Shown here: piece by piece, positions 2,276-23,350 of the stretch
Layout: every line of letters begins with the position of its first letter
How positions within the stretch are numbered: position 1 is the stretch's first letter
Virus record (IMG/VR): IMGVR_UViG_3300033145_000244
Location: 1 to 49,592 of that record
Length of the DNA stretch: 49,592 nucleotides
From: a virus
Reading direction: 5' to 3' (one strand)
Program-made: the position numbers and the translations under genes
The notes under the pieces: model-generated
The model's database searches: none
Seen by the model: the letters and a program-made list of their open reading frames with translations, nothing else
Told to the model about the DNA's origin: nothing

Positions 2276-2463
2276 GGCGGTGCAAAGATTGTCCCAAGGT
2301 ATTTTGGCTAGTAACACATGACCGCGGGTTTAGAGATGGTTGTTGGGCTTGTAAGGCAACAGAAACGCATCCAGGAATATATGGGAATCCCAAGATATTA
2401 AACAAGGATGGGGATTGCCAATATTACAAACGTAAATGGTGGAAGATATGGAGGGCTAAATGA
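2272..2463 (+). CDS. Small Cys-rich protein (63 aa)
   Basis: A 63-residue basic protein with C-x2-C near the N-terminus (CKDC), C-x2-C in the middle (CWAC) and one more Cys near the C-terminus, consistent with a small zinc ribbon. It starts in an ATGA overlap with the preceding gene and ends in an ATGA overlap with the next, so all three are probably translationally coupled. No function can be assigned. Confidence 0.65.
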   Translation: MRRCKDCPKVFWLVTHDRGFRDGCWACKATETHPGIYGNPKILNKDGDCQYYKRKWWKIWRAK

Positions 2464-2570
2464 TAATGCTACAAACAATATGCGTGATAATAGGATGGGT
2501 GATGGTGGTAGGGCTTGGGTTTACGGGTGCGTGGGTAGCGTGGTGTTTATTATGGAGGGATGGGAGATGA
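2460..2570 (+). CDS. Small membrane protein (36 aa)
   Basis: ATG at 2460 opens 36 codons (MIMLQTICVIIGWVMVVGLG...) forming essentially one transmembrane helix with a basic C-terminus (LLWRDGR). It overlaps its neighbours by ATGA at both ends (2460-2463 and 2567-2570), the usual arrangement of coupled phage genes. Such single-span peptides can be holin-like, superinfection-exclusion or host-takeover proteins, but nothing here distinguishes them. Confidence 0.55.
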   Translation: MIMLQTICVIIGWVMVVGLGFTGAWVAWCLLWRDGR

Positions 2571-2893
2571 GTGATAAATTGAAACCATGTCCGTTTTGTG
2601 GAGGAGAAGCAGTATTCTATAATAATGAACCATTAGCCCAAATAAGATGTAGAAAGGACATATCTTGTAGGTTCCGTAGTATGGTGTATCTAACAAATGA
2701 AGAAGCTACTATTGTATGGAACACAAGAATAATTGAAGATGAATTAGAAGCTGAACACTACCGTAAACACGTAGTAATGTATCAGGTGCAGATGGCTATG
2801 GAGAAGAAGATCAAGAAACTGGAGGCACAGGCTGAGAGTTGGTTTGAACATATGCTAGTAAAGGAGGATAAAGATGAGGAAGGCCACGAATAA
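2567..2893 (+). CDS. Lar-like restriction alleviation protein
   Basis: A 108-residue protein beginning MSDKLKPCPFCGGEAVF, followed by an IRCRKDISC segment and then EEATIVWNTR. The order 'LKPCPFCGG...C...C...A...WN.R' is the hallmark of the Lar/restriction-alleviation zinc-ribbon family common in phages, where Lar of the Rac prophage modulates type I restriction. The C-terminal half is a charged helix (MEKKIKKLEAQAESW). I chose ATG 2567 (ATGA overlap, GGAGGGATGGGAG upstream) over far-upstream in-frame starts because the conserved domain begins there. Family assignment is good; an anti-restriction role in this phage is inferred. Confidence 0.8.
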   Translation: MSDKLKPCPFCGGEAVFYNNEPLAQIRCRKDISCRFRSMVYLTNEEATIVWNTRIIEDELEAEHYRKHVVMYQVQMAMEKKIKKLEAQAESWFEHMLVKEDKDEEGHE

Positions 2894-3271: not shown

Positions 3272-3745
3272 ATGACAGAATTAATATTATTAGTGGGTAA
3301 TATCGGTAGTGGGAAGGGAAGGTTGGCAGAGCAATACCATGAGAAGGGCTATTTAATATTGAACAAGGATGCAATACGCAGTATGATTGGAGCTGGTAAG
3401 TACATATTTGACCCCAAGATTGAGCCAATACTTGCGCATATAGAGGGCGCACTAGCTGGTTCCATGCTTAGTGCTGGGTATAATATCGTAGTTGATTCAT
3501 GCAATGTAACAATTGGTAGACGCATGGAGTATAAGCAAATTGCAGAGATGTTTAAGGCCAAAATCATAGTACATGAATTACCAAGGGAGTTAATGTCCTT
3601 ATGTATTGAACGTAGGATGAATGATGCACGTGGTGTCTCGAAGGAAACATGGGAAGAGGTATGGATGAAATTTGACAGTAAGTATTTTTCTCCCATAGAG
3701 GAGGAAGGATACGCAGAGATAAGGAGGGGTGCTGATGTTAATTGA
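3272..3745 (+). CDS. P-loop NTPase/kinase, polynucleotide kinase-like
   Basis: A 157-residue protein with an N-terminal Walker A motif (VGNIGSGKG, about residues 8-16), a DAIR segment after beta2 (LNKDAIRSMIG), a 'NIVVDSCNVT' segment as the second acidic strand, and 'CIERRMNDARG' as the LID-like arginine region. This order matches the AAA_33/zeta-toxin/T4 polynucleotide kinase 5'-kinase group, which phosphorylates nucleic acid ends or small substrates. The kinase core is complete but there is no phosphatase domain. AAGGAGG precedes the start. It overlaps the downstream nuclease, suggesting a role in DNA-end processing, but the substrate is not evident. Confidence 0.75.
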   Translation: MTELILLVGNIGSGKGRLAEQYHEKGYLILNKDAIRSMIGAGKYIFDPKIEPILAHIEGALAGSMLSAGYNIVVDSCNVTIGRRMEYKQIAEMFKAKIIVHELPRELMSLCIERRMNDARGVSKETWEEVWMKFDSKYFSPIEEEGYAEIRRGADVN

Positions 3746-4580
3746 GAGAGTAAATGATTATATTTGTAATCCGCATATTTCATCTGATAGGGGTAGAAAG
3801 GGATATTACCCATCAGAGGCAAGTGCTATTGATCGTAATACTGGTGTATGCCTTGGTAAGTGTTTGCGTGCGGCGTATTATTCATGGTCTAATGTTGAGA
3901 AGACCAACCCAGTAGATGCACGTGGCAATTGGACCTTCGCATTCGGTAGTGCGATTGAACACCTATATACGCAATTCTTTAAGGAGATTGGTATATGGCG
4001 TGGCAATAATGTAAAATTCTATGATCGGGTGCGCAACATTAGTGGTGAGGTTGATATCTTTGTTGTGAATCTAGAGGGTAGTATTATTGGTGTGGAAATA
4101 AAGACCGCATATGGATACGGGTTTCAAAAGAACATTAAAGTCGCGCCAAAACCAGAGAACCTGATGCAGGTTGGCCTATACCTTGATAACTTTCCAGATA
4201 TTAAGTATTGGATATTAATTTACCATTCAAGGGACACACAAGAACAGGTTGAGTACCATGTTAGTCGTGGCCCAAATAATAATCTCATTATAAATCATGC
4301 CATACCAATTAATAATTGGACGATGGATGATGTGTACGTTAGATATGATCAACTTGGGCAAGCATTGATGACAAAAACTGAGCCTAAACAGGATTTTACC
4401 TATATGTATACAATGGAAGAATCAGTAAAAAGATTTGCCATGGGTACAATAAGCAAAACAAAAATGGGGAAGGTAGAGAAGAAGACCGAGACTGACAGTG
4501 ACTGGCACTGCTTGTATTGTGGATATTTAGACCATTGTTGGAAAGAAAAAAGGGCTAGTATAAAATTGAAGGGGGTTTGA
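3735..4580 (+). CDS. Cas4/RecB-like PD-(D/E)xK nuclease
   Basis: A 281-residue protein with a RecB/Cas4-type nuclease core: H76 (GSAIEHL), D107 (GEVDIFV) and E121-x-K123 (IGVEIKT), then a Q-containing helix (PENLMQVGLYL). It also carries the Fe-S arrangement of Cas4 and AddB: Cys at 39/43 (GVCLGKCLRA) and a C-terminal trio C259, C262 and C268 (CLYCGYLDHC). This predicts an iron-sulphur-stabilised DNA exonuclease acting in recombination, end resection or host DNA degradation. ATG 3735 is chosen because AAGGAGGGG is 6-7 bases upstream; an in-frame GTG at 3729 is less likely. It overlaps the kinase gene and no cas1 is nearby, so this is a phage recombination nuclease rather than a CRISPR component. 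Confidence 0.88.
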   Translation: MLIERVNDYICNPHISSDRGRKGYYPSEASAIDRNTGVCLGKCLRAAYYSWSNVEKTNPVDARGNWTFAFGSAIEHLYTQFFKEIGIWRGNNVKFYDRVRNISGEVDIFVVNLEGSIIGVEIKTAYGYGFQKNIKVAPKPENLMQVGLYLDNFPDIKYWILIYHSRDTQEQVEYHVSRGPNNNLIINHAIPINNWTMDDVYVRYDQLGQALMTKTEPKQDFTYMYTMEESVKRFAMGTISKTKMGKVEKKTETDSDWHCLYCGYLDHCWKEKRASIKLKGV

Positions 4581-5360: not shown

Positions 5361-5747
5361 ATGGATGCATATGAAAATGATATAACATATGATGAGCTAG
5401 AGAAGAAGATAGTCAATACATTAAACACCGTTGAGGGCAAGATGGGACACATGATACGTGATGTAATACATCGTAATACTAATATGTACTACTACCTACT
5501 TATAAGTCCATGTGCGATTAATGGTAGTATTCGTATAATGAAGCACCATGGACAACGAGACAACAATCGCACATTTGTCGAGGTTGAACGGTTTAGATAC
5601 TATGATTGGAATATGAAGGTTAATGCATATAAGAAAGCACTATTGTGGTTGCTTAGTAAAAGTAAAATCGGATCTATGGTTGGTAGAGAAGCGGTAATGA
5701 CATTAAGCAATAAGGTATATAAGGTAAAAATAATAGAGGAGGTATAG
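5361..5747 (+). CDS. Unknown protein (128 aa)
   Basis: A 128-residue protein (MDAYENDITYDELEKKIVNT...) with mixed alpha/beta character and a basic C-terminal half (KKALLWLLSKSKIG). A GGGGGG tract precedes the ATG. Its stop overlaps the next gene's GTG start by one base. It lies just upstream of the zinc-ribbon and PurZ genes, in the same transcript direction. Function not recognised. Confidence 0.7.
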   Translation: MDAYENDITYDELEKKIVNTLNTVEGKMGHMIRDVIHRNTNMYYYLLISPCAINGSIRIMKHHGQRDNNRTFVEVERFRYYDWNMKVNAYKKALLWLLSKSKIGSMVGREAVMTLSNKVYKVKIIEEV

Positions 5748-5953
5748 TGACTACTGCGTATTGCCTGATATGTAAAGATGTAACAGATGTAGTTGATTCA
5801 AGCGTTGACTATTATAAAAATGGAACGCCAGTAATCAAGGGTAAGTGTATTAAGTGTGGTAAGAGGATAACAAGGATCATGAAGAGGGATGAACGCGTGC
5901 TATTAAAGGAAAAACAATATAGTTCAATTAGAAAGGAGATAGAGGATGCCTAA
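5747..5953 (+). CDS. DUF5679-like zinc-ribbon protein
   Basis: A 68-residue protein with YCLICKD near the N-terminus, a KNGTPVIKGKC segment and CIKCGKR, i.e. two C-x2-C knuckles. The pattern 'AYCxxCK...KNGxPxxxGxCxxCG' is typical of the small DUF5679 zinc ribbon often found in phage and archaeal-virus genomes. The start is GTG 5747, with AGAGGAGG upstream. Its last codons overlap the purZ-like start (5946-5953), so translation is probably coupled. The molecular role is unknown. Confidence 0.75.
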   Translation: MTTAYCLICKDVTDVVDSSVDYYKNGTPVIKGKCIKCGKRITRIMKRDERVLLKEKQYSSIRKEIEDA

Positions 5954-7019
5954 AGTAACATGTATTATAGACGGCCAGTATGGTAGCTGTGGTAAGGGTG
6001 CCATATGTGGACATCTAGCTAATGAATTTGATGTTGCAGTACGTGTCGGCGCACCAAATGCTGGTCATACATTGAAGATTGATAGGCGTATATGGAAATT
6101 CCAGCAAATACCAGTAGCGGCACTTATAAATAAGGATATGCGAGTATGTATTGGTGCGGCTGGTCTCATAAATGAAGAGGTATTAAGACGTGAAATGAAC
6201 GAGATTGAGAACACGCATAGGCTTATGATTGATAGAAATGCTGGCATACTTGAACCACGGCACAAGGAACAAGAAGAGGCTGAGAAGATGTTTGAGGGTA
6301 TAGGCTCTACGTGTGAAGGTGTTGGCGCGGCAAGACGTGATAAGATTAAGAGGGATAAGAAATTCAGGACCGCGGGTAAGACTGAATGGTTACGTGAGTA
6401 CATAACAAATGTTGCCATTTATTTGAACACGTGTAGTGACGATACAAAGGTTATGATAGAAGGAACGCAAGGATATGGATTGAGCATGAATCACGGACAA
6501 TATCCATATACCACGTCATGTGATGTACTTGCATCATCCTTACTATCAGATGTTGGCCTAGCACCGCAGACGCTTGAGCATACGATCATGGTAATAAGGA
6601 CATACCCAATTAGGGTATTTGGCAATAGTGGCCCCATGTGTGGTAAGGAGTTATCATGGGATGATATAACCAAGAGGTCTGGTGCACCAAAGCCCATAGT
6701 TGAGCGCACAACAGTCACTAATAGGGTACGCAGGGTATGTGAATTTGATATAGACATGGTAAGGGAGGCATGCCTACTAAATAGACCGACGCAACTAGCA
6801 GTAACATTTATGGATTATATTGATCATAAGGATTACGGCAAGACAGAGTATAATGCCCTAAGTGAGAAGTCAAGAGCATTCACAACGATGATATATGATA
6901 AACTTGGAATACCAGTTACACTAATCAAAACTGGGCCAGATAATAAACATATCATTGATCTAAGAGGTAAGTATACATTAACCAAAAATTTAGCCTTTGA
7001 TGAGGGTAATAACATTTAA
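5946..7019 (+). CDS. purZ: PurZ-like adenylosuccinate synthetase homologue
   Basis: A 357-residue PurA-family enzyme. The N-terminal loop reads DGQYGSCGKG (residues 9-18), so the catalytic Asp of cellular PurA (E. coli D13, GDEGKG) is Ser14, while the catalytic His is kept (H41 in APNAGHT). Also visible are EGTQGYGLSMNHGQYPYTTS, the ERTTVTNRVRRV loop and a C-terminal TGPDNKH. Asp-to-Ser with retained His is, from established work on phages S-2L and PhiVC8, the PurZ signature. PurZ condenses dGMP with aspartate to form N6-succino-2-amino-dAMP, the precursor of dZMP, so that Z replaces A in phage DNA. The length is shorter than bacterial PurA (about 430) and close to archaeal PurA and PurZ. Whether ATP or GTP is the phosphate donor (PurZ versus PurZ0) cannot be read by eye. 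It is coupled to the zinc-ribbon gene. Confidence 0.9.
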   Translation: MPKVTCIIDGQYGSCGKGAICGHLANEFDVAVRVGAPNAGHTLKIDRRIWKFQQIPVAALINKDMRVCIGAAGLINEEVLRREMNEIENTHRLMIDRNAGILEPRHKEQEEAEKMFEGIGSTCEGVGAARRDKIKRDKKFRTAGKTEWLREYITNVAIYLNTCSDDTKVMIEGTQGYGLSMNHGQYPYTTSCDVLASSLLSDVGLAPQTLEHTIMVIRTYPIRVFGNSGPMCGKELSWDDITKRSGAPKPIVERTTVTNRVRRVCEFDIDMVREACLLNRPTQLAVTFMDYIDHKDYGKTEYNALSEKSRAFTTMIYDKLGIPVTLIKTGPDNKHIIDLRGKYTLTKNLAFDEGNNI

Positions 7020-7369: not shown

Positions 7370-8680
7370 ATGGGATGGGGAGCAGTAGACGGTCAAGGCT
7401 CAAGTGGTGGTGGGGTAGCAAAAGAAAATAAACTTGAATTAGTGCCAGGCACATCAAAAAAGGTTAGATTCTTATTGCCCAATAACTCAGAGCCATATAG
7501 CGTATGGACGCATTATATACCAAATTTTAATCCTGGTGTAAAGGCCAAGGGCAAGATAGTATATTGTCCTGGTATGGGTGTATGCCCAGCTTGTGGAAAC
7601 CCAGAATTCCGTACAAGGTTGACACATATAGTAAATGTATTTGATTATAGCACAAATAGTGTAAAGATTCTTGAAACTGGCAATATGATAATGAAACAGG
7701 CAAAGATGTTAAAAGATCAATTTGGCACGCTTGATGCTGTTGATATTGTGATTAATAGAACTGGTGCTGGTACTAATACATCATATACCATTATCACACT
7801 TCCAGTTACAGCAAATCTACCACCAGATATACAATTATTTGATTTACCGTCTATGTATGTTACAACGTCGGTAGAAGAGGTTACTAAAACGATGTCTGAT
7901 TTTGGACATCTTTCAGCACCAGTATCAGCGCAGGGTGCGGTACCAATTGCCAGTGCGCCAATGCAACAAGTGATACAGAAAGTTATGCCGCCAGTGCCAG
8001 TTGCACCACCACCAACCATGGCACCAGTGGTTACGAATGTGCCACCGCCAGTAACTAACATACCTGTACCCGTTACCAATATACCAGTTCCAGTAACGGT
8101 AGCACCAATTCCTGTACCACCACAGGTAGTAAATACACCGCCTGCGACAGCGGCACCTGTGGGTGCACCGACTACAGAGCAAACAAACATTGTTGATTTT
8201 GGTAAATACAAGGGTAAGACCCTAGATGAGGTCGCAACGATGGATATTGAATATCTTGATTGGGTGGCCAATAATGTACCAAAATTCAAGGATGCGGCAC
8301 GCAAACTGTATATTGCCACTAAGGCAATGGGTGTACAAGAAGCAGTGGCACAACCTGCACCAGCGGCAGTGCCACAGCCATTTATACAGGAATTAGAATC
8401 AGAAAAGGCGGCCGCAAATTACAAGCAACAAATGGCTAGTAATACAGCTGTTAGTCCTCAAGTAGTAAACAACATAGCAGACAATATTGAGATACAGGTA
8501 ATACGTATACAGAAGTTAATATCTGCAAAATTTGCTGGTAATTTTCAACGCGTGGCAGAGATTATGTCCACATGTAGTAAATCACCAACACACCCAAATG
8601 GTAAGATTGCCCTGGCTGAATTTAGCCCAGTGGAGCTTACACAACTTGAGTTTCACCTAAATGAGGAAGGCAAAGCATAG
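7370..8680 (+). CDS. ssDNA-binding-like protein with ExoX-like C-terminal domain
   Basis: A 436-residue protein. Residues about 20-180 resemble phage gp32-type single-strand binding proteins: KKVRFLLP, then a zinc-type cluster C66, C72, C75 (YCPGMGVCPAC) and beta-rich segments. Residues about 190-265 are a long Pro/Val/Ala-rich linker (repeated PVTNIPVPV). Residues about 274-320 read VDFGKYKGKTLDEV...YLDWV, matching the ExoX-like C-terminal domain found after DnaQ-type exonucleases. A helical tail follows. AAGGAGG lies 5 bases before the start. Its place between PurZ and the polymerase fits coating of replicating phage DNA. The SSB call rests on the fold pattern and context. Confidence 0.7.
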   Translation: MGWGAVDGQGSSGGGVAKENKLELVPGTSKKVRFLLPNNSEPYSVWTHYIPNFNPGVKAKGKIVYCPGMGVCPACGNPEFRTRLTHIVNVFDYSTNSVKILETGNMIMKQAKMLKDQFGTLDAVDIVINRTGAGTNTSYTIITLPVTANLPPDIQLFDLPSMYVTTSVEEVTKTMSDFGHLSAPVSAQGAVPIASAPMQQVIQKVMPPVPVAPPPTMAPVVTNVPPPVTNIPVPVTNIPVPVTVAPIPVPPQVVNTPPATAAPVGAPTTEQTNIVDFGKYKGKTLDEVATMDIEYLDWVANNVPKFKDAARKLYIATKAMGVQEAVAQPAPAAVPQPFIQELESEKAAANYKQQMASNTAVSPQVVNNIADNIEIQVIRIQKLISAKFAGNFQRVAEIMSTCSKSPTHPNGKIALAEFSPVELTQLEFHLNEEGKA

Positions 8681-9703: not shown

Positions 9704-10279
9704 ATGCGTGTATCACTTATCGGATTACCTGGATCTGGCAAGACCACACTAGGTAAATTAATGGCAGATGTGCTAAACATAATGTACGTTAGTAGTGGTG
9801 ACCTAGCACGTGCACATGGATTCTCAGGATCAAAAGAAGAAGCTACTGGCCAACTGGCCAAGAATGAAGGCATAATACGTAAATTAATAATGTCTGTATT
9901 AGAAGATAGTGATGCGTATATTCTAGATGGATTCCCAAGGACAATTGAGCAGGTTAAAGAAGTTGATATCAAATTTGATGCCATTCTATATCTAGGCACC
10001 CCAGATCGCATCGCATATGGCAGACTAATAGAAAGAGGCAGAGATGATGATGTACCAGAGATAATAGATAGTAGATTTAAATTGTACCGTGAGATAACAC
10101 ACCCACTAGTGTGGCATTGGGAGCAAGAGAGGATACTAATAAAGCTAAATGCAAGTAAATCACCGCATGAATTACTTGGTGAGGCAGTAAATAAATTAGG
10201 CAAGGCCAAGATATTAATACCTAACAAATATATTAACACAATACTAAGAAGGTTAAAACGTGGACTACTTAATAACTAG
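9704..10279 (+). CDS. Adenylate kinase-family NMP kinase
   Basis: A 191-residue protein with the full Adk core: P-loop GLPGSGKT (residues 7-14), SSGDLAR (NMP-binding helix), DGFPRT, RGRDDD, and RFKLYREITHPLV matching 'RlxxYxxxTxPL'. It is a short-LID form without the zinc LID of Gram-positive enzymes. Adk transfers phosphate from ATP to AMP. Here, beside a PurZ homologue, it could phosphorylate dZMP, dAMP or another purine dNMP; that is inference. In described Z-phages host kinases are thought to do this step. The last 20 bases overlap the sigma-like gene. Confidence 0.85.
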   Translation: MRVSLIGLPGSGKTTLGKLMADVLNIMYVSSGDLARAHGFSGSKEEATGQLAKNEGIIRKLIMSVLEDSDAYILDGFPRTIEQVKEVDIKFDAILYLGTPDRIAYGRLIERGRDDDVPEIIDSRFKLYREITHPLVWHWEQERILIKLNASKSPHELLGEAVNKLGKAKILIPNKYINTILRRLKRGLLNN

Positions 10280-10832
10280 TGCAAGAGCTGGCAATACGTA
10301 CGCAATTCCAAAGTTAATGTATACATATAACAGCATTATAGAATCAACGATATATAGAGTATACACGACATTTGGTAAAACAATACCTGTTGTAGATATA
10401 TCAGACAGGGCAAGACAGATATTCAGGGCCTTTGTATTGGGAGAATATGAATTAGACGGTAGAGCAAAATTTAAATATTTCCTGTCTAAGATGTTATATG
10501 CAAAGTTAATACATGAATTTAGGCCCCTACACAGGAAGAAGAAGGTATTAGTACCACTTGAGTATCATAGTCTTGAACTAAGTGTACCGCCCAAAGTATG
10601 GCAACGTGAGCGTGCCAATATTATATATAAATTACTTAAGTTTGCCGAGAAGACCTTTACCAGGCAAGAAAATGCATTTATAGATAGATGTATACTAGGT
10701 GGTGAATCGCAGGCAGACCTGGCACGTGAATATAGGATAAGTAGGGCGCGTGCATCACAAATATATGGTCAAGCAATTGAAAAATTACGTGAAAAATTAC
10801 GCAGTATAGGAATAAAGAAGGGGGACCTATGA
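10260..10832 (+). CDS. Sigma-70-like transcription factor
   Basis: A 190-residue protein with an N-terminal helical region (YAIPKLMYTYNSIIESTIYR) reminiscent of sigma region 2, and a C-terminal helix-turn-helix typical of region 4: FTRQENAFIDRCILGGESQADLA, then EYRISRARASQIYGQAIEKLREKL. It starts at GTG 10260 within the kinase gene. The length and two-part layout resemble small ECF-like phage sigma factors. The likely role is redirecting host RNA polymerase to middle or late phage promoters; no classical late promoter is obvious in front of the terminase genes, which fits. Region 2 is divergent, so a transcription regulator is the alternative. Confidence 0.65.
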   Translation: MDYLITSARAGNTYAIPKLMYTYNSIIESTIYRVYTTFGKTIPVVDISDRARQIFRAFVLGEYELDGRAKFKYFLSKMLYAKLIHEFRPLHRKKKVLVPLEYHSLELSVPPKVWQRERANIIYKLLKFAEKTFTRQENAFIDRCILGGESQADLAREYRISRARASQIYGQAIEKLREKLRSIGIKKGDL

Positions 10833-11014
10833 GGGATTTTGCATACGCCATCATTAATAAAAATAATAGTAAAATATGTGAATATTTACCACACACTGGA
10901 TTAAGTATATACGAGTTTAGATACGATGCAGAAAAATTAGTAAAGAGATGGAATCGTATAACACATAGTCACCCATATATTGTAATAAAAGTCAGGATAG
11001 TAAAGGTAAAATAA
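10829..11014 (+). CDS. Small unknown protein (61 aa)
   Basis: A 61-residue basic protein (MRDFAYAIINKNNSKICEYL...) starting in an ATGA overlap with the sigma-like gene and sharing its final base with the polymerase ATG (TAATG at 11012-11016). The GGGGGACCT before the ATG is an adequate ribosome binding site. No domain seen. Confidence 0.6.
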   Translation: MRDFAYAIINKNNSKICEYLPHTGLSIYEFRYDAEKLVKRWNRITHSHPYIVIKVRIVKVK

Positions 11015-13581
11015 TGTTTACACATCTACATGTACATTCCCACTACAGTATGCTTGATGGACTACCATCACCAGAGCAGATAGTACTACGCGCCAAGGAA
11101 TTAGGACAGAGTGCTGTTGCCCTGACTGACCATGGTAATATGTGTGGTATATTTGAGTTCTATAAGAAGGGTATAGAGCATGGCATTAAGCCAATACTTG
11201 GGTATGAGGCGTATGTTGCCGCTGGCAATGATCGCTTCTTTAAGAGTGCAAAGAAGGGTGAGAAAAGCTCATACCATATTACCCTACTAGCGAAGAATAA
11301 CATCGGGTATCAAAACCTTATTAAGCTATCAACATTGGCCTATACGGAAGGATTCTATTATAAACCACGCATAGATTACAAACTACTAGGACAACACAGT
11401 GAGGGTATTATATGTATGTCCTCATGTATGTCTGGTGAAATACCACAATGCATACTAAATAATTGTGCCATCGGCGCACAGAGCATAATACAATGGCTAT
11501 CTGACTGTTTTAAGGGTGATTTCTACTTAGAGGTACAGGATCATGGTATACCAGAACAAAAGACCATAAATAATTGGATATACGATTGGACAAAGAATAA
11601 TATAGTTGCCACTAATGATACCCATTATTGTAATGCATCAGACGCGAAGGCGCATGAGATAATGCTTGCCATAAGTGTGAATAAACACATCTACCGCCCA
11701 GACGCATTCAGATTTTCAACCAACGAATTTTATATGAAGAGTGAGCCTGAGATGCTACAGTTATTCCCACGGCACGCAATAGAGACAACGCAAGAGATTG
11801 TCGACAAGTGCAATGTTACGCTTGAAATGGGCAAGAAGCATCCCATCGTTTCGCAAGAGGATGCCTTCTCTTACCTTAAAAATAGGTGTGAAAGCCAAAT
11901 ATACAGATTTCCTTCAAGCTACGAAGAAAGATACCTACATGAGATGGAGGCAATACGTAAAACAGGGTATGCTGAGTATTTATATGTGGTGGCTGACTTC
12001 ATATCATACGCTAAGGCGATGGGTATACCAGTAGGTGCTGGACGTGGTAGTAGTGCGGGTAGTCTAGTATGTTACCTACTAGGTATAACAGAAATAGATC
12101 CGATAGAATATGGTCTCTTATTTGAAAGGTTTATTAACATAGAAAGGATAGCACCACCAGATATAGATGTTGATGTGTGCCAGCTACGTAGGGGTGAGAT
12201 AATAGACTACCTAAAGGCAGCATATGGGGATGATAATGTTGCACAGCTTATAACATTTGGCACACTTAAAGCAAAGGCAGCAGTAAAGGATCTATGCAGG
12301 GCACTAAACGTATCATTTGATGCAGCTAGTAAATTGACAAAGATAATAGGCAACCACTTTGAGGGTGATGTTGCTGAATTAATGGGGAATAGGGCCTTTA
12401 TTAAGGGACTAGAGGGGATGCTTAATACACAACAATATAATGATTTTATGTATGCCCTGCCACGCATAGAAGGCAAATTACGTACAAGTTCAACACATGC
12501 CGCTGGCGTAGTAATAGCACGTGAGAAATTAATAAATATATTGCCTCTACAGAAGAAGGTTACATCTGATGATATACTAACACAGTATGATATGAATTGT
12601 GTAGAGGATATAGGATTATTAAAATTTGATGTACTTGGTCTACGTACACTAACTATCATACAGGATACATGTAATGCAATAGATATACGCCCACAAGAGA
12701 TAACACTTGAGGACACATATACGTATGAGATGTTACGTAGAGGTGAAACATTTGGTGTCTTCCAGTATGAGGGGTGGGGGTATACAAAATTTATTAAGCG
12801 TATACAGCCAACTGAATTTGCCCACCTAATCGATCTCGGCGCACTCTTTAGACCAGGACCCCTGAATTCGGGGATGGCAGAGACGTACATAGCTAGAATG
12901 CGTAGCGGTGAGCGCGATTATGATGTTAAATTAAGTGAAATATTGATAGATACATATGGTGTTATCTTATACCAAGAACAAGTTATGATGATATGTCAAA
13001 AGATTGCAGGCTTTACCATGAATGAAGCTGACGCCATGCGCAAAGCGATAGGTAAGAAGGATAAATCCTTAATGGATGAGGTCATAGCGCAATTCAAATT
13101 TAGTGCCATTAATATGATGGGCAATAGTGTTGAATACGTTGAAGACCTGGTTGGTAGACTGGTAACCTTTGCCAGATACGGATGGAATAAAGCACATGCT
13201 GTTAGTTATGCACTATTATCATACCAGACCGCATATCTTAAATATAATCATTGTACACCGTATTTTTGTTCCCTGGCCAATGCTTATATCGCAGATAATG
13301 ATAGACTTAGTAAGATATATAAAGAGGCTGGTAGATATGGAGTAATATTACAATCAGCTAACGTAAATATTAGTGAGGTACAACATGTAGTACACAATGG
13401 TACAATATATAGGGGATTACGGTCACTAAAGGGAATAGGGTCTAAGTCATGTGAGGCTATAATATTGGAACGCAATGCCAATGGTGAATTCACGAGTGTA
13501 GAGGATTTTAGGTCGCGCATAGCACCAAAGTTGGTAAATAAATGTGCATTTCAAACATTAATAGATGGGGGTGCATTCTAA
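11014..13581 (+). CDS. dnaE: DNA polymerase III alpha subunit (DnaE-type)
   Basis: An 855-residue C-family polymerase. The N-terminal PHP domain is clear (FTHLHVHSHYSMLDG, LTDHGNMCG, ISCMSG-type loop). The palm carries the catalytic aspartates D383 and D385 (PPDIDVDV) and D539 (LKFDVLGLRTL), with ITFGTLKAKAAVKD and GRGSSAGSLVCYLLGIT nearby. The fingers follow (RPGPLNSGM, YQEQVMMI, RKAIGKKD, NKAHAVSYALLSYQTAYLK), then a helix-hairpin-helix region (LRSLKGIGSKSCEAI). It is shorter than E. coli DnaE (1160) because the OB-fold and tau-binding C-terminus is missing. It is presumably the phage replicase. If the DNA contains Z, this enzyme rather than a PolA-type DpoZ would have to accept dZTP. Confidence 0.95.
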   Translation: MFTHLHVHSHYSMLDGLPSPEQIVLRAKELGQSAVALTDHGNMCGIFEFYKKGIEHGIKPILGYEAYVAAGNDRFFKSAKKGEKSSYHITLLAKNNIGYQNLIKLSTLAYTEGFYYKPRIDYKLLGQHSEGIICMSSCMSGEIPQCILNNCAIGAQSIIQWLSDCFKGDFYLEVQDHGIPEQKTINNWIYDWTKNNIVATNDTHYCNASDAKAHEIMLAISVNKHIYRPDAFRFSTNEFYMKSEPEMLQLFPRHAIETTQEIVDKCNVTLEMGKKHPIVSQEDAFSYLKNRCESQIYRFPSSYEERYLHEMEAIRKTGYAEYLYVVADFISYAKAMGIPVGAGRGSSAGSLVCYLLGITEIDPIEYGLLFERFINIERIAPPDIDVDVCQLRRGEIIDYLKAAYGDDNVAQLITFGTLKAKAAVKDLCRALNVSFDAASKLTKIIGNHFEGDVAELMGNRAFIKGLEGMLNTQQYNDFMYALPRIEGKLRTSSTHAAGVVIAREKLINILPLQKKVTSDDILTQYDMNCVEDIGLLKFDVLGLRTLTIIQDTCNAIDIRPQEITLEDTYTYEMLRRGETFGVFQYEGWGYTKFIKRIQPTEFAHLIDLGALFRPGPLNSGMAETYIARMRSGERDYDVKLSEILIDTYGVILYQEQVMMICQKIAGFTMNEADAMRKAIGKKDKSLMDEVIAQFKFSAINMMGNSVEYVEDLVGRLVTFARYGWNKAHAVSYALLSYQTAYLKYNHCTPYFCSLANAYIADNDRLSKIYKEAGRYGVILQSANVNISEVQHVVHNGTIYRGLRSLKGIGSKSCEAIILERNANGEFTSVEDFRSRIAPKLVNKCAFQTLIDGGAF

Positions 13582-14046: not shown

Positions 14047-15723
14047 ATGTTCCAACTTTCAGACAATGCTGTTGCCGTACTAGAGAAGAGATACCTAATA
14101 AAGAATAAAGATGGCAAGGTGATAGAGACACCAGAACAGATGTTCCAACGTGTAGCAAGGTCAATAGCTGGGGCAGAGATTCATGATAGTAGTGAAGTGT
14201 GGGAGGAGCGATTCTTCAAGATAATGTCTAATCTTGAGTTCCTACCCAACTCACCAACCCTAATCAATGCTGGACGCGAGCTGGGGCAACTATCAGCATG
14301 CTTTGTCCTTCCACTAGAAGATAGTATGGACTCTATCTTTACTACACTACGCGATGCAGTATTAATACAAAAAAGTGGTGGCGGTACTGGCTTCTCATTT
14401 TCTAGCCTAAGACCAAAGGGTGGGTTGGTAAAGAGTACACAGAAATGTGCTGGTGGCCCAGTAGCATTTATGCGGGTATTTGATGGCGCGATGTCTGTTA
14501 TTACACAGGGCGGCGCACGCAGGGGTGCCAATATGGGTATATTACGTGTAGATCATCCAGATATTATAGACTTTATATACTGTAAATCAGTGGAGGGTGA
14601 CTTAGTTAATTTTAACATATCAATTGGTATTACTGATGAATTTATGGCCGCAGTAAAGCATAATACCACATATGATTTAATTAACCCAGTAAATGGAATG
14701 ATAACAAGCACTCAAAGCGCAAGAAGTATATTTGAGATGATAGTCGAGGCGGCATGGACTAACGGTGAGCCTGGGTTAATCTTCTTAGACGAGATTAATA
14801 GATATAATGCAGTGCATCATCTAGGTGAAATAACAGCATGTAACCCATGTGGGGAACAACCACTACTACCATATGAGTCATGTAATCTTGGTTCATTAAA
14901 TCTGGGTAGATTTGTTAAGGGTAGTGAGATAGACTGGAATAGGCTTAAATATGTTACACAGACCGCAGTACGATTTTTAGATAATGTGATAGACATGAAT
15001 AAATACCCGACATCCCAGATAGAAACACGCACAAAGTCTACACGTAAAATAGGTCTTGGTATAATGGGATTTGCTGACCTACTTATAAAGATGGATATTA
15101 AGTATGACACACAAGAAGCAGTAAGCACAGCAACACAGGTGTGGAAATTTATACACGATGAAGCAAGACTGGCATCAATAGACCTGGCAGAAATACGTGG
15201 TGTCTTCCCCGCATTTAGGGGTAGTACATGGTATCATGCTGGTACGCGTGCACGCAATGCGGCACTTACTACTATTGCACCTACTGGTACGCTATCTATT
15301 ATAGGTAACTGTAGTAGTGGTATAGAGCCATACTTCAGTAAATCGACTAAGAAGAAGATACTAAATACCATACTAGAAGAGGAGATAGAATATGCAAAAG
15401 AAGATTGCTTCATTACCGCTCATAATATTGAACCAGAATGGCATGTTAAAATTCAGGCCGCGTTCCAGCGTTATAGCGACAGCGCTGTGTCAAAAACCAT
15501 CAACTTCCCCAATCTCGCTACTAAAGCAGATGTTTATAACGCTTATATGCTGGCTCATCGCCTTAAATGTAAAGGCATTACTATCTACAGGGATAATAGT
15601 AGAAGCGAACAAGTGTTAAATGCGGTGGAGAAGTGCCCTGATTGTGGGGCAGATATTATCAATGAGGGTGGGTGCCAGACATGTGGTGCTAAATGTGGGT
15701 GGTCAGCCTGTAGGATTTCGTGA
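14047..15723 (+). CDS. nrdJ: Class II ribonucleotide reductase (adenosylcobalamin-dependent)
   Basis: A 558-residue NrdJ-type enzyme, which reduces ribonucleotides to deoxyribonucleotides using a B12-derived radical. Visible are the redox Cys C85 (LSACFVLP), GGGTGFSFSSLRP, GGARRGANMGIL, the active-site triad N266, C268 and E270 in NPCGE, the partner Cys C279 (ESCNLGSLNL), GLGIMGFADLL, and APTGTLSIIGNCSSGIEP. The C-terminus carries a Cys-rich redox tail (CPDCGADI...CQTCGAKCG). There is no ATP-cone. No NrdB or NrdG is nearby, as expected for class II. The host therefore probably has B12 available. It supplies dNTP precursors, including the dGMP pool a PurZ pathway would draw on. Confidence 0.93.
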   Translation: MFQLSDNAVAVLEKRYLIKNKDGKVIETPEQMFQRVARSIAGAEIHDSSEVWEERFFKIMSNLEFLPNSPTLINAGRELGQLSACFVLPLEDSMDSIFTTLRDAVLIQKSGGGTGFSFSSLRPKGGLVKSTQKCAGGPVAFMRVFDGAMSVITQGGARRGANMGILRVDHPDIIDFIYCKSVEGDLVNFNISIGITDEFMAAVKHNTTYDLINPVNGMITSTQSARSIFEMIVEAAWTNGEPGLIFLDEINRYNAVHHLGEITACNPCGEQPLLPYESCNLGSLNLGRFVKGSEIDWNRLKYVTQTAVRFLDNVIDMNKYPTSQIETRTKSTRKIGLGIMGFADLLIKMDIKYDTQEAVSTATQVWKFIHDEARLASIDLAEIRGVFPAFRGSTWYHAGTRARNAALTTIAPTGTLSIIGNCSSGIEPYFSKSTKKKILNTILEEEIEYAKEDCFITAHNIEPEWHVKIQAAFQRYSDSAVSKTINFPNLATKADVYNAYMLAHRLKCKGITIYRDNSRSEQVLNAVEKCPDCGADIINEGGCQTCGAKCGWSACRIS

Positions 15724-16174: not shown

Positions 16175-16385
16175 GAAGACCGATATCGCCGCATACACCA
16201 TTGTAAAAGATGATGTAGACTTTGTCACGGACGACGATTTGGCGTTAGAGATAATACTTAGGCGCAAGCGGATTGTGCGTGCGGGTCAACAATGGGTGTC
16301 TGGCGGTAAGGGCAAGGGATCATGGCGATCTAAAATCCTCGAAAGGATTCCAGTAAATTACGCGGTTTACGTTCTTTCCCCTTAA
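16131..16385 (+). CDS. Small unknown protein ending in antisense overlap with the late operon
   Basis: An 84-residue frame (start could also be ATG 16143, 16146 or 16149; no good ribosome binding site is visible) encoding KKTDIAAYTIVKDDVDFV, then LALEIILRRKRIVRAGQQWV. Its middle part lies outside other genes and looks protein-like. The C-terminal 56 bases run antisense to the end of the giant virion gene (16330), so the two convergent transcription units overlap with no terminator between them. Confidence 0.45.
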   Translation: MIAPMTMMRKTPHNKKTDIAAYTIVKDDVDFVTDDDLALEIILRRKRIVRAGQQWVSGGKGKGSWRSKILERIPVNYAVYVLSP

Positions 16386-19300
16386 ATGTGTGGCCAGTTG
16401 GTAATTGTGGGCCACGTCCAGGTAGGGATCTTCTCAATCTTTCATGTGCATCAGTCTCTTGGCGTTGTTTATATGCTAGTACATCCTCCATAGTCACTGG
16501 CTGTAATTCCTTCGCGAAATAATCTCTCATATCCTGGCTATACTTATTTAGCATATCATTATTTAATTTCCCAGCCTTTTCACTGTCACCATCAAGTATA
16601 GCCTGTGATACCTTATCCCGCATAGCCGATATATCATTCTTCATCTGCCCCATACGTTGCATATCGGCCCTACGCTTAGACGATTCCAGTGACCTAGTAA
16701 ACATATTAACCATCTGCTCATTGGGATTACTCTTATATATTAATTGGCCATTATGCTCACGTACATTCCAATCATCCTGCCATGCACGCATAAAATTCAT
16801 GCCCTTACTGACATATCTATTACCAAATCCCTGCCATGTATTTATCACACGTTCCTTCGCACGCTCATCACCGTCAAGCATCTGGCCGATATCGTATAAC
16901 TCACTAACCGCTGGTATCATATCAGTCGGTGATGAAATACCACGTACAGCAAAAGACCATATAGCACTCAAATGACTACCAAGATCAACTCCAACAGCTT
17001 GGGCACCCTTATATAGCATATACTCCTGCATAGCAAGATTAAATACAGCTTCATTTTGGCCATCACGTACCCACTGTCTTATCATCTCAACTTTAGCCAT
17101 CGGCCACTTTTTAAACATAACAAATCGCCACATAGGATTGGCCATATCTACCAGCATTGAGTCTGCCTTAGTATTACCAGTGATAAATATCTTGCCATTT
17201 CTTCTAGCAACCCACGTACCATTATCTACCACTGGGCACCAGATCTCACCACTATAGTCAATAATTTCCCTTTTACATTTACCAACTGTCGTATTCTGTG
17301 TGCGCTTAGACGCAAACGCAATAAAAAACACACCACTATCATCTTTACGCTCTTTATATAGTGTACATGTATATCCAGCTAGGTATGCTAGTATCTGCCA
17401 ATTGGTAATATTCTCTTTCTTCCTTAAACTTTGCGTAAAAAATATGCCATTATTTGACTTACTCCTCCACCCATCACCATCTACCATTACCTGCAACAAT
17501 ATTTCACATTGACGCTTGCTTAGTTTCATAATAAATTCAGTAGTTAATCTATTAGACGGGGCCAACGAATATAAATCATCAGACAGTGGCTTGCGCAATG
17601 ACCACATCACTGAAATTTTATTGTCTCTTATTCTAGTAGACACGTTATAGTGACCACCAAGTCTATTAAGTAATTGTTCAATCTCTACTGTATGTGCTTG
17701 ATTCTGTGAAAATGATTGATATAGTCTAAAATTTCTAGCTGTCTTACAGTTCCTAAACTTAGTTAATTGCCCCTCGGTGACAGACCAACCAACTAAACGT
17801 ACCATGTCATCACTAATTATTTCATCTACACCAATATAGTCGGCAACCCTTGCTAGTCTATGTGAGTATACCAATTTATCAGCCCGCACTATTTTATTTT
17901 TATCATTCCTACTTCGTACAACGCACCTATGATTTGGTGTCATAACCTTATCAATGCTTTGATTATTAATGTGTACCATATTGCCAGAATAATTAAATAC
18001 ACCAAGCTCTTTTATCGGCTCAATTTCAAGTATGTTACTACCCATATTAAGTGTAAATATACTGTCACCAATATTTAGCTCATTATAGCTCTTCCACCCA
18101 CTTATTGTCAAACATTCAGTATCTGGCGTAACACAATAGCCAAATTGAGTCTCATGACTACCCTTTTGTGCTTCACGTATGGCCTGTTGTGGCATCATAC
18201 CTTTGTCTATGGCACTATAATATGCGGCTAGACCAGAGATATTACGGTTATTCTTATCAAACTGTGACCATAAGAAGTAACTAGCTTCCTCTATATGTGA
18301 TAATTTAACTACCTTATTAGACTCGGCAATAAAGTGACCACCACGCTTAATGCCCTCACTATGCAAATCTGCCGCTTCTATAATCCCCTTACCCTCTTCT
18401 GTAAACTGCCTATACGTAGCCTTAGCTGTATTCTTTACCCCATATCTAGCCATGGCATGTTGCCACTGTATACTATTCTTCAATGAGGTGTCAATAGCAA
18501 GGCCAATATATCTCCAGTAATAAACCCTAGCTATGGGTGATGTAATACGTGATACTGGGTAGGCTGGTGCCACTGATGCCCGTAATTTTGCGGCCCCACT
18601 CTTCATGCCAACTTTCTGCATCATACCAGCTAGTGTTTGATTTATCCCCTGCCATGTCTCCTGTAGGGCTTTATCTACATGGGTAGGTTGTCCACGCATT
18701 GATCTTATGTATACCTTAGCCATTTCCTGACGCATGCCCTTATACTGCTTTGCGTATTCCAATGATACCCTATTTGCATCTTTTAATGCCAAGTACTTCT
18801 CAACACCATTTATATATGCAGTGTCTGATTCTATGGCACTATGCCTATAATCCTTGCCGCCAGTACGTTTACGTAGTGCACCAGCAACAGGCATGGCACC
18901 AGGCATCCATATGTCTTCTATAGCGAATCCCTTATCAAAAATACTAGTAATAGCACTATCAAAAATCCTATGATAATAAGGCTTTCTTGATCCATCTTTG
19001 AAAAATACCTGACCCTTTTTTATTAATCCATCGGCTAATAATCTATCTGCATATTCATTATACAATGTACGTCTTTCAACAGCAATCTCCCTTATTCCCT
19101 CTGGTAGTTGCTCAAGTTTTAGTATGCCATCAGCGAATGCAGCCAGCTGTTTATCTGCTTTACTACCACGTTTAATCTTACCACCATATATGGAATTTAA
19201 CCTATTAAACTGAGTAGTACGTATAGCCTGTAATCGTTGATATGCTGGCTTAAATTGATCATATATGGGACGTATTGCTATCCTGCCTGACTGTAACCAA

Positions 19301-22300
19301 TCAAATATATTGCCCTTCCTACCAAAATACTTATCAAAGTACTCAACTGGTAACATTTCATTTACACGTGGTATAACTATATTACCCCTAGGGCCAGGCA
19401 CTAATTGCTGCATAAATTGCTTGGCTTCTTCAATTTGTGGCTTGGTGAGGCTCTTTACTTCCTTAAGTGGTATATTATAATATGTAGATAGGAACTTAGT
19501 TATATTGCGTGTAACTTCCTTATTATTCTTACTCTTGTAGAGAAGACCTACATGTTTAGCCATCCTTTTGAGTGATGTAATATCCTTACCAGTTGCCATC
19601 TCAGCACGCAGATCACCCTCTTGCCTTTGGAATGCAGGGAAAGACCATGATAATTCTGGTGCCTCCTTACCAGCTCTTGATATAGCAAAATCATTAGACC
19701 TTACATCTATTGTGTATTCAAATTTTTTCTGCTGTTGTGGTGTGCCGAGTACTGTGGCAACTGCCTGACCTGGCACCTCCTTCCCATCCATATAAAACTT
19801 CGCACCAAATTTATTTGCTAGTTCGTATCCTTCTCTACTAGCGGTAATACCAGTAACCTTCTCTAAGTTTGGATTCTGTTTAACACCCTCATCTATCAAC
19901 TGTCGTAGTACACGCGATCCAGCACCCTTGCGCCTAAAATCAGGCTGTGTCTCCATGAAGCCAATATTCATGGTATTATCCTTCATATTACCCATACCAC
20001 TAGATACAATATTACCACCATATCGTACTTGGGCGCGTACTTCATATGTCCTACTAGTAGCAACGGGTGGGACTTCAATTGGAGATTTAACCTCTCTATT
20101 AAATCCAACTTCTGTAAATGCAACACTAGATGGTTTACCGCCAACCAATTCAGCAAATTTATCAAATGCAGTCTTGGCTTTACGCAACTCATTTGGCCCA
20201 CTAGTAAATACGCCAGGTAAACTTATATCACTAGTTGTCTCTTTCCCGCCGACCCCATGTTTTTGTATTTTTACGGTTAAACCAGATTCTTTAGCCGCGG
20301 CTAATTCTGCATCTGTCAATTTACCGCTAACTCGTATCATGAACTTTGGTTTTGGTTTTAATCCAGACATGAATCCAGATGCAAACGTACGTGGATACAA
20401 TACTGACACTGCACCACGTACAGTCTCTTCTACATTCGGCAATAATTGTTCAAGTGATGTAGCCTTATCAGCGGCCCGCGTACGTATCTTGTTCTCTTCA
20501 CCCACTGGAACTGCTTCTACGCCAGGCGGTTTTGCCAATACATTTTTATTTAATACCATATACTGAGTCTTATTCAATATATCTTCATTTGTGAATTTTA
20601 TGACATCTACCCTACCACGTGCGGCGGCATGCTTTGCAACTGCAAGTTGCGTTTCAAGGAAATTTTGATTTTGTTCACCTGGAAGATCACCAACATTATC
20701 CCATAGATCATTTAATGTTTTAAACTTTTTACCATATTTTCTTGTTAATCCTGGCATCGGTTTATTTAATAGACCATTGTTCTCGGCATATGAGTATGAA
20801 CTTTCCATTTCTTTAATCTTTGCTGTATTCTTTATCATCATGGTGGATATTGATTCACCAAACTCATGTGTCGATTCACCACGTGGAGCGTAGAATGCGC
20901 CAGTAGGATCACCACGCCTTTCTACTAGTATCCCACCAGTTTTAGCTGTTAAATCAACCTGCTCACCCTTCCTAGCCACAGCCCGTTCAGTACGTAATTC
21001 TTCTGCCCTTAATTTCCTAGCTTCACCCAATGATTTGCGTGCCTGAGTTGCAGCATCCCTATGTATGCCCCATAGGTGATCCATCTCATTGCGCATCTTC
21101 TTATAATCTTTATCCTTGGCAAACCAACGCTTAAACCCAGCCTCACTCATTAGACTCTTCTTCTCATACCACTTGGCATTACTATACTCAAGTATCTGCT
21201 GTGCCTTATTTGCCCACTCACGTGATGCCTCATTTGAGATACCACGCATGTTGTTTATCTCTGCGCCTATCTGCTGTGCTGTGATAGCACCCTTAGCAAG
21301 GTGGCCACGTGCCTCTGCTACTGGCCTTATATCAACAGGTAACTGAATCTCGCGCATTAATGTATTAACCTGCTCTGTAGTAGGCTTGCTACCAAGCATC
21401 CTATCAAATGCTATCTCTGCATCAACCTTAAATTTAGTTAAGAAGTCAAACTTCTCACGTACCACAGGTGCATTGTGCTTAAGTACGTGGTCAAATATGT
21501 AATCAGTTGATCCGATGTTACTAGTAACTTGCCCATTATTCAATGCTTTCTCGTATGCCCCTGGATTAGTAATACGTAATTGTTCATTCTTCATCATATC
21601 GCCAGAGTTTTGATATGTTGGTTTGATCCTACCATTTGTAGCTTTAATAATATACGCCCATTTAATATCACTAGGTATTTCATCATATGAATTATACTGA
21701 CGTATAGACTCACCTAATTCAGTAGGTGTCATCTTATTAAGTTTATATTTATGCTGGACAGCCTTATTAAATTCAGCCTCTAGGCGCAAGGGATTATTAG
21801 ACAGGGAGAACATAATACCAAGACCCACCTCATATACGAGCTTTGGTATACTGCCCTCACCACGTTGTAATTCTTTAAATGATTGATATCCAGTAAAGTA
21901 CTCATTAATTCCAAGCCTAGTAGCAAAAGCAGTAAGATGTGTAGCAGGGTCAGTAATCTTAAGCCCCATCCTACTAGCCCCCCTCTTTACTAGATCGCCA
22001 GTAATACCATGCGCCATACTAAATGCGGCACCCATACCAGCACCAACCATACCAGACCCACCACGCATCTTAATGTTATCCATAAATGACTTACCGCCAT
22101 GTGTAGACAGGACTGAATAGGTGCCTAGTTTAAACCCACCAGCGATCATACGCTTGGCTAATACACCCTGTGCCGTAGTAGGTCTTAACCTAGACAGGGC
22201 GGCAACGGGTTTAAGCTTACTTATCAACTTTAATGGGCCGCTTAATCCTATTAATGATGCGATAGAATTAGTAACACCACTAATATCATTATCTGGTGTC

Positions 22301-22716: not shown

Positions 22717-22720
22717 CTTT

Positions 22721-23350
22721 TTATGCTCCTGTAAGCTGAGAACGTAAGAATGCAATGACCTGCTCTCTAGCCATACCACTCTGTTGCATAGTAAACTCAA
22801 TATCTTCCTCTGTAACACCAAGTGCCTGCAATATCTGGTCTTCACTCTGTGACGTAATACCCACATCACTACCACCAATGCCAAACCTAGATTTAAACTC
22901 TTCAAATGTAGGTTTCTCTACTGGACTAAAATCTGGTAGTAGTGCATACATAGAATTAGTCTTATCAACCTCAGTCGTATAATCATTATACATCTTGGCA
23001 AGTGTGGCCTCAGACAACTCTTCACCATACTGGTATGATACCTGCCCATCCTCACCGACTGTGGCCTGCTTCATCCTAAAACCCTCTGGTAACTCTGGTG
23101 CACCAGCTGACTCAGGTACAGTGATACCAGCATGCTCAGCGGCAACATCAGGATACCTACTAAATGCAGCCTGTGCCGCAGTACCCCTAACTACAGCGGT
23201 CTCCTTGCGCAACTCTGCCTTCTTATCTAGCCCAGTTTGCATTGCTGTCTTCACCAGGGTACTAAATGCATCACCACCAGGATTCACTGAACGTCTTTGC
23301 CTATCAACTTCCACTTGACTAGCAACTAATTGCTGCCATGCATTGGCCAT
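22721..23350 (-). CDS. Probable internal virion protein (209 aa)
   Basis: A 209-residue soluble, Ala/Gln/Glu-rich protein (MANAWQQLVASQVEVDRQRR...). The second half is acidic and ends in two helices (EEDIEFTMQQSGMAREQVIAFLRSQ) resembling UBA-like or helical-hairpin ends. GGGAGG precedes the start. It sits between the 558-residue Gly/Ala-rich protein and the giant protein, the usual place for the second podovirus ejection protein. The functional call comes from context only. Confidence 0.6.
   Translation of the reverse strand: MANAWQQLVASQVEVDRQRRSVNPGGDAFSTLVKTAMQTGLDKKAELRKETAVVRGTAAQAAFSRYPDVAAEHAGITVPESAGAPELPEGFRMKQATVGEDGQVSYQYGEELSEATLAKMYNDYTTEVDKTNSMYALLPDFSPVEKPTFEEFKSRFGIGGSDVGITSQSEDQILQALGVTEEDIEFTMQQSGMAREQVIAFLRSQLTGA

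Follow-up and report, generated by a model that had tools for sequence, protein, structure and literature searches.

We found that a viral DNA of 49,592 nucleotides (IMG/VR record IMGVR_UViG_3300033145_000244, the whole of which is here called the window) carries a purZ-like gene in one replication block with an adenylate-kinase-like kinase and a DnaE-type DNA polymerase III alpha (Pol III alpha), and that the combination of this polymerase with purZ occurs in at least six phage records on at least four branches of PurZ. The window most likely represents a phage with 2-aminoadenine (Z) in its DNA and a third replication architecture. We consider it probable that the explanation holds as a whole, with a PurZ-type enzyme of a third phage lineage, dZTP supplied by way of the phage kinase and Z placed by Pol III alpha. 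That this is an independently assembled third way to replicate Z-DNA, in which a family C replicase replaces DpoZ and an ADK-like phage enzyme serves as dZMP kinase, seems to us about evenly balanced. The support comes from active-site state, tree position, gene content and recurring module linkage, with all catalytic steps deduced from sequence. The family C polymerase and the kinase are the more novel part, missed by a preliminary description that had centred on the PurZ-like enzyme.

The purZ-like gene (positions 5946..7019, plus strand, ATG start) encodes a 357-aa product of the PurA/PurZ family, a predicted (d)GMP-aspartate ligase, which matched Pfam PF00709 (E=6.6e-48) and PHROG 1211 ('2-aminooxy adenylosuccinate synthetase', the phage PurZ family; E=6.6e-69). 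As the preliminary description had held, alignment with E. coli PurA placed Ser14 (codon at 5985..5987, plus strand) on the catalytic Asp14 (Asp13 without Met1) and the kept His41 on His42, and column counts agreed. These counts were taken from an alignment of 88 non-redundant homologues (70 Ser-clade, 15 archaeal PurA and 3 bacterial PurA sequences), in which the catalytic-Asp column held Ser in 70/70 Ser-clade members and Asp in 15/15 archaeal and 3/3 bacterial PurA; with Ser fixed in all sampled members, Ser14 is thus a clade-wide state and not due to chance. The next residue is Cys15 in the window protein, Glu in nearly all relatives and Thr in classical PurZ. The window protein also has the PurZ-type insertion after PIRV (PIRVxGNSG, here PIRVFGNSGPM..SW, including Ser228) and the TTVT substrate loop (Thr-Thr-Val-Thr), with Thr255 where PurA has Gly; the insertion with Ser228 and Thr255 are Ser-clade states that the window protein shares and that are absent from PurA. 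Its Asp290 aligns with PurA Asp333, which binds the guanine of GTP, and this column held Asn/Gln in sampled classical PurZ and in Bacillus phage vB_BpsS-140, whereas PurZ0-type, chromosomal and PurA sequences had Asp there. The Asn/Gln mark of ATP-type PurZ was accordingly not seen at this position in the window protein, and Asp290 predicts that the enzyme would use GTP. The PurA state is likewise kept at Arg260, which aligns with PurA Arg303 and counts against a Z-DNA reading; Arg303 contacts the ribose of IMP (PMC8342488), and a preference for dGMP over GMP is therefore not readable from that site.

In three trees the window protein fell inside the Ser clade, which was set apart from all Asp-bearing PurA at 100/100. 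There it formed a lineage of its own with the IMG/VR contig L004 (50% identity, support 100/97), and in the best tree it belonged to neither known phage subgroup, PurZ or PurZ0. AU tests rejected none of the alternative placements, giving p-AU 0.28 when it was joined to PurZ, 0.47 for PurZ0 and 0.29 for all phage PurZ. The phylogeny of PurA, PurZ and PurZ0 that had been proposed as a check thus bore out a position outside Asp-bearing PurA, and in its best tree showed a separate lineage in place of either phage subgroup. The score with the NCBIfam PurZ model NF038379 was 233.3 bits, under the cut-off of 300, which counts against a Z-DNA reading. The PurZ-like identity first proposed therefore stands as regards the Ser/His pair, the insertion and the TTVT loop, and does not extend, by the best tree and the curated PurZ cut-off, to membership of PurZ or PurZ0. 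A scan of IMG/VR for close relatives gave no match with the single window protein as query, an alignment query being needed, and a narrower PurZ scan returned L004 as its sole match. This nearest purZ relative has PolA and no Pol III, which counts against our preferred explanation. L004 also encodes, 3.5 kb downstream of its purZ (L004:14517-15026), a 169-aa protein resembling, by eye, a nucleoside 2-deoxyribosyltransferase, which had no match in an NCBIfam search.

The location in a replication block, also part of the preliminary description, was confirmed by the neighbouring replication and nucleotide genes, all on the plus strand. An SSB-like protein whose C-terminal part has an ExoX-like motif (7370..8680; PF20600 6.5e-11, PHROG SSB 2.8e-7, and synteny) has a homologue in vB_BpsS-140 that is encoded immediately after purZ, and similar proteins occur in the IMG/VR contigs G067 (by eye) and G075. 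Further on come the adenylate-kinase-like kinase of 191 aa (9704..10279; PF00406 1.5e-18), a candidate dZMP kinase whose nearest solved structures are adenylate kinases, and a sigma-70-like gene (10260..10832; PF04545 2e-5, TIGR02937 1.2e-7) that lies between kinase and polymerase here as in vB_BpsS-140. The DnaE-type Pol III alpha of 855 aa (11014..13581; PF07733 4.3e-82, PF02811 3.5e-54, PF17657 1.5e-45) comprises PHP, palm, finger and HhH parts with a PDIDVD motif. An adenosylcobalamin-dependent (class II, NrdJ) ribonucleotide reductase of 558 aa is encoded beyond it (14047..15723; PF02867 3.8e-120; TIGR02504 661.6 bits, cut-off 400), having homologues on two further purZ contigs, L007 and L066. 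Upstream of purZ lie a P-loop (polynucleotide) kinase-like gene (3272..3745; PF13671 3.4e-14, PHROG 505 1.6e-15) and a Cas4-like nuclease gene (3729..4580; PHROG 2.8e-15), the latter with a weak homologue (28% identity, 76.6 bits in L276/L277) that in G067 also lies next to the module. Elsewhere in the window, a Lar-type restriction-alleviation motif (PF14354, 4.4e-8) was seen in the early region (2408-2893, plus strand), and a 2191-aa virion-side protein (16330-22905, minus strand) had a match of 25% identity on L060, a purZ contig of 312 kb.

When 64 purZ-bearing records were searched in two panels (34 + 30), PolA was found in 42, Pol III alpha in 6, both in 0 and neither in 16, many of these last being fragments. 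The non-overlap of the two polymerases would have P=0.001 if records were independent, a figure that overstates the case as the records are related. The six with Pol III alpha are the window, vB_BpsS-140 and the four IMG/VR contigs G067, G075, G096 and G100; G068 is a near-identical copy of G067 (99.99% over the shared locus), and G076, a record that is cut at its end and has a weak Pol III alpha match, may be a seventh. They occupied at least four places in the PurZ tree, namely the window, G067 with G075, vB_BpsS-140, and G096 with G100, the last two at the base of the ATP-type PurZ clade, and an AU test of a single clade for the purZ-linked Pol III alphas gave p-AU 0.12, which neither establishes nor rejects such a clade and counts as a point against our preferred explanation. 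Among general relatives of the polymerase, purZ was found in the flanks of 0 of 80 and in 0 of 29 whole records, so that the polymerase family is in itself no marker of Z.

The order purZ-SSB-...-kinase-...-Pol III alpha was common to four of the six, recurring in unrelated phages. In the window it reads purZ and SSB and, further on, adk, sigma and Pol III alpha; in vB_BpsS-140, purZ, SSB, recA, helicase, dnaG, adk, dut, sigma and Pol III alpha; in G067, purZ, a product in which an ExoX-like motif was seen by eye (no match in a Pfam search), recA, a YfbR/DatZ-type HD protein, dnaG, adk, dut and Pol III alpha; and in G075, purZ, SSB, recA, helicase, dnaG and adk, with Pol III alpha further on. 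In G096 and G100, no kinase match was present within the regions read. The polymerase of vB_BpsS-140 (L001:31811-35418) is split over two overlapping ORFs, a PHP part and a polymerase part, which may be real or a sequencing frameshift.

The kinase of the window is rare, with matches in 16 of 50,697 phage records, vB_BpsS-140 being the best, and a scan of 2.9 million viral contigs with a kinase alignment gave 19 loci. The top two, L276 and L277, are duplicates of a single virus, and purZ is present in each. Within the first panel of 34 records, PF00406 scored above its cut-off only in the window, vB_BpsS-140 and the phage contig G027/L073. This last belongs to another purZ lineage and has its kinase between purZ and a gene for a protein with a dUTPase domain at its end. 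Its locus (L073:9977-13052) reads purZ, a 121-aa ORF, the ADK-like kinase and a gene for an N-terminal NDT/DmtZ-like part (by eye) with the C-terminal dUTPase; a search of this contig for PolA found none.

Earlier accounts link replication of Z-DNA to the PolA-type polymerases DpoZ-1 and DpoZ-2 or the PrimPol of S-2L and leave the conversion of dSMP to dZTP to host enzymes (PMC12884076, PMC8342488, PMC8065100, PMC8599892). In the open-licence literature, supplements aside, we found no mention of PurZ together with Pol III alpha or of a phage dZMP kinase. In the route that we propose, the window enzyme would join dGMP and Asp at the expense of GTP, substrate and donor being predicted, to give N6-succino-2-amino-dAMP (dSMP), which host PurB would presumably convert to dZMP. 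The phage adenylate-kinase-like kinase may then form dZDP, an ADK-type enzyme being reasonable as dZMP kinase because the N6-amino face is common to adenine and Z, and host NDK would be expected to produce dZTP. Finally, the phage Pol III alpha, in place of a PolA-type DpoZ, would insert Z opposite T, giving virion DNA with Z.

Evidence on virion DNA came from the relative vB_BpsS-140. According to the sections of PMC6483233 considered here, DraI digested every phage DNA of that study except that of vB_BpsS-140, and EcoRI cut all; in those sections the authors draw no link between the DraI result and purZ. We counted 21 DraI sites (TTTAAA) and 24 EcoRI sites in its genome. The DraI resistance is as expected from modified A or T, and other modifications may also produce it; the cutting by EcoRI, the site of which contains A, counts against a Z-DNA reading.

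As for the known partners of Z phages, the window record had no match to PolA-type polymerase (DpoZ; PF00476), to the YfbR-like DatZ type (PF12917) or to dUTPase/DutZ (PF00692). Reference proteins of MazZ, DUF5664 and DmtZ gave no tblastn match in the window, a search weaker than a six-frame profile search, and ten small unassigned ORFs, in which these three were sought, had no match in Pfam. No dATP-removing enzyme of a known family was thus recognised in the window, which counts against a Z-DNA reading, and replacement of A could accordingly be complete or partial. The claim of a Z genome made at first is therefore upheld in part, by the DraI resistance of the relative and the linkage of purZ, kinase and Pol III alpha, and left without support from DpoZ, DatZ, MazZ, DutZ or DmtZ.

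A mixed A/Z genome, with the aminoadenine nucleotide only partly used in DNA by a phage that lacks a dATP-removing enzyme and has a polymerase that may not discriminate, would agree with the missing DatZ, MazZ, DutZ and DmtZ matches, with Pol III alpha being a general replicase, and with vB_BpsS-140 DNA being cut by EcoRI and not by DraI. However, the window is one contig in which no end repeats were found, its unassigned genes could include a dATP remover, and G067 has the DatZ-type HD protein within the same module; we regard such a mixed genome as rather unlikely.

Bacterial and archaeal genomes, when searched, yielded many chromosomal proteins that likewise have Ser at the catalytic-Asp site, including two bacterial-chromosome clades (A and B), often within a conserved operon. 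Clade A (25 sequences, SH-aLRT 100) usually has its gene between those of an M78-peptidase protein and a DUF7002 protein, and one of two M78-peptidase proteins checked (L106) had a weak macro-domain match. The M78-peptidase/Ser-type PurZ-like/DUF7002 operon was seen in L106, L110-L113, L121, L134, L135, L145 and others, with hosts of clade A-type operons among Pseudomonadota, Chloroflexota, Acidobacteriota and Actinomycetota. PADLOC gave CapP and DarG matches in this operon for its first (M78-peptidase) protein only, and none for the purZ-like protein of the window. Clade B genes lie near DCD-like, deoxynucleoside-kinase and other genes (L122, L130, L132, L153, L174 and L175, with RNase-H-like/AAA neighbours in L132). 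A Ser-type PurZ-like gene (L105) was also observed on a contig of a Nanoarchaeota MAG, the genes of which look cellular (G033 contig 28; L191:3628-4662 and 5418-6137), where a nearby 239-aa protein resembles, by eye, the c3 family found beside bacterial chromosomal homologues.

Full-length PurA was also encoded in four of four bacterial genomes checked (two per clade). Since Ser-type homologues thus occur on chromosomes beside a normal PurA, Ser14 is not specific to Z-DNA and the residue alone is insufficient; the Ser/His combination, put forward at first as a PurZ-specific mark of Z-DNA, cannot serve as such, and Z-DNA is the best inference, not one implied by Ser14. It would also be conceivable that the window enzyme shares the job of these homologues, unrelated to genomic DNA, for instance by producing, from (d)GMP, an aminoadenine nucleotide that acts as a signal or as a metabolite in defence. 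The conserved operons of the chromosomal Ser clades (M78-peptidase/macro with DUF7002, or DCD-like, dNK and others) speak for this, as do trees that do not settle the branch order inside the Ser clade. Against it, a search of the window for the chromosomal operon partners found none, the window gene lies in a replication module common to other phages, and the virion DNA of vB_BpsS-140 resists DraI, making a role of this kind improbable in our view.

An AlphaFold model of the purZ-like protein (pLDDT 93.9) had the PurA/PurZ fold, matching Pyrococcus PurA 5k7x (TMq 0.88), PurZ0 7VF6 (0.83) and phiVC8 PurZ (0.80), a comparison that did not tell PurA from PurZ. The curated archaeal PurA model NF003295 gave the best NCBIfam score of the window protein, 315.2 bits, under its cut-off of 368. 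An ordinary phage-borne PurA raising the adenine supply from IMP would fit this nearest structure and best score, Arg260 and the C-terminal nucleotide-binding KTGPD motif, kept as in PurA, but is highly improbable given a catalytic Asp replaced throughout the clade, a PurA score under the cut-off and the 100/100 split from PurA.

The window can be compared with several known systems. With classical PurZ (phiVC8 DgsS 6FKO/6FM1, S-2L 7ODX and the SH-Ab 15497 group) the enzyme shares the fold, Ser at the Asp site with His kept, the insertion after PIRV, the TTVT loop and a gene in a replication block, whereas it differs in the GTP-type Asp290, in clade, in scoring under the NCBIfam cut-off, and in a neighbourhood where no DatZ, MazZ or DpoZ-2 was found. 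PurZ0 (Gordonia phage Archimedes 7VF6; Wayne and Ghobes) likewise has Ser at the Asp site and a GTP-associated Asp, but the window lies outside its clade in the best tree (joining: p-AU 0.47) and is without matches to DutZ, DmtZ, DUF5664 and DpoZ-1. Archaeal PurA (Pyrococcus horikoshii 5K7X) is closest by sequence (208 bits) and fold and has the same C-terminal nucleotide-binding motif, while lacking the Ser, the insertion and the TTVT loop of the window protein. The phage vB_BpsS-140 (MH884512) matches the window in the order of purZ, SSB/ExoX, adk, sigma and Pol III alpha and in having no PolA, yet its PurZ groups as sister of the classical ATP-type clade, with Asn at the Asp290 site, and it also has dut, recA, dnaG, thyX and the divided polymerase. 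The replication modules of known Z phages (DpoZ-1, DpoZ-2 and S-2L PrimPol) also link purZ to a phage DNA polymerase, with PolA or PrimPol in the place of the DnaE-type family C enzyme of the window.

The presence of Ser-type homologues on many bacterial chromosomes prompts one to ask what purpose such an enzyme serves in cells. The relative vB_BpsS-140, which shares the module of the window, has been cultured and is deposited as DSM 29700. If our preferred explanation is true, the dZMP-kinase step of dZTP supply would be freed from host kinases, and a family C polymerase copying Z-DNA together with a phage dZMP kinase would widen the picture of how such genomes are replicated and provide new means of producing Z-DNA.
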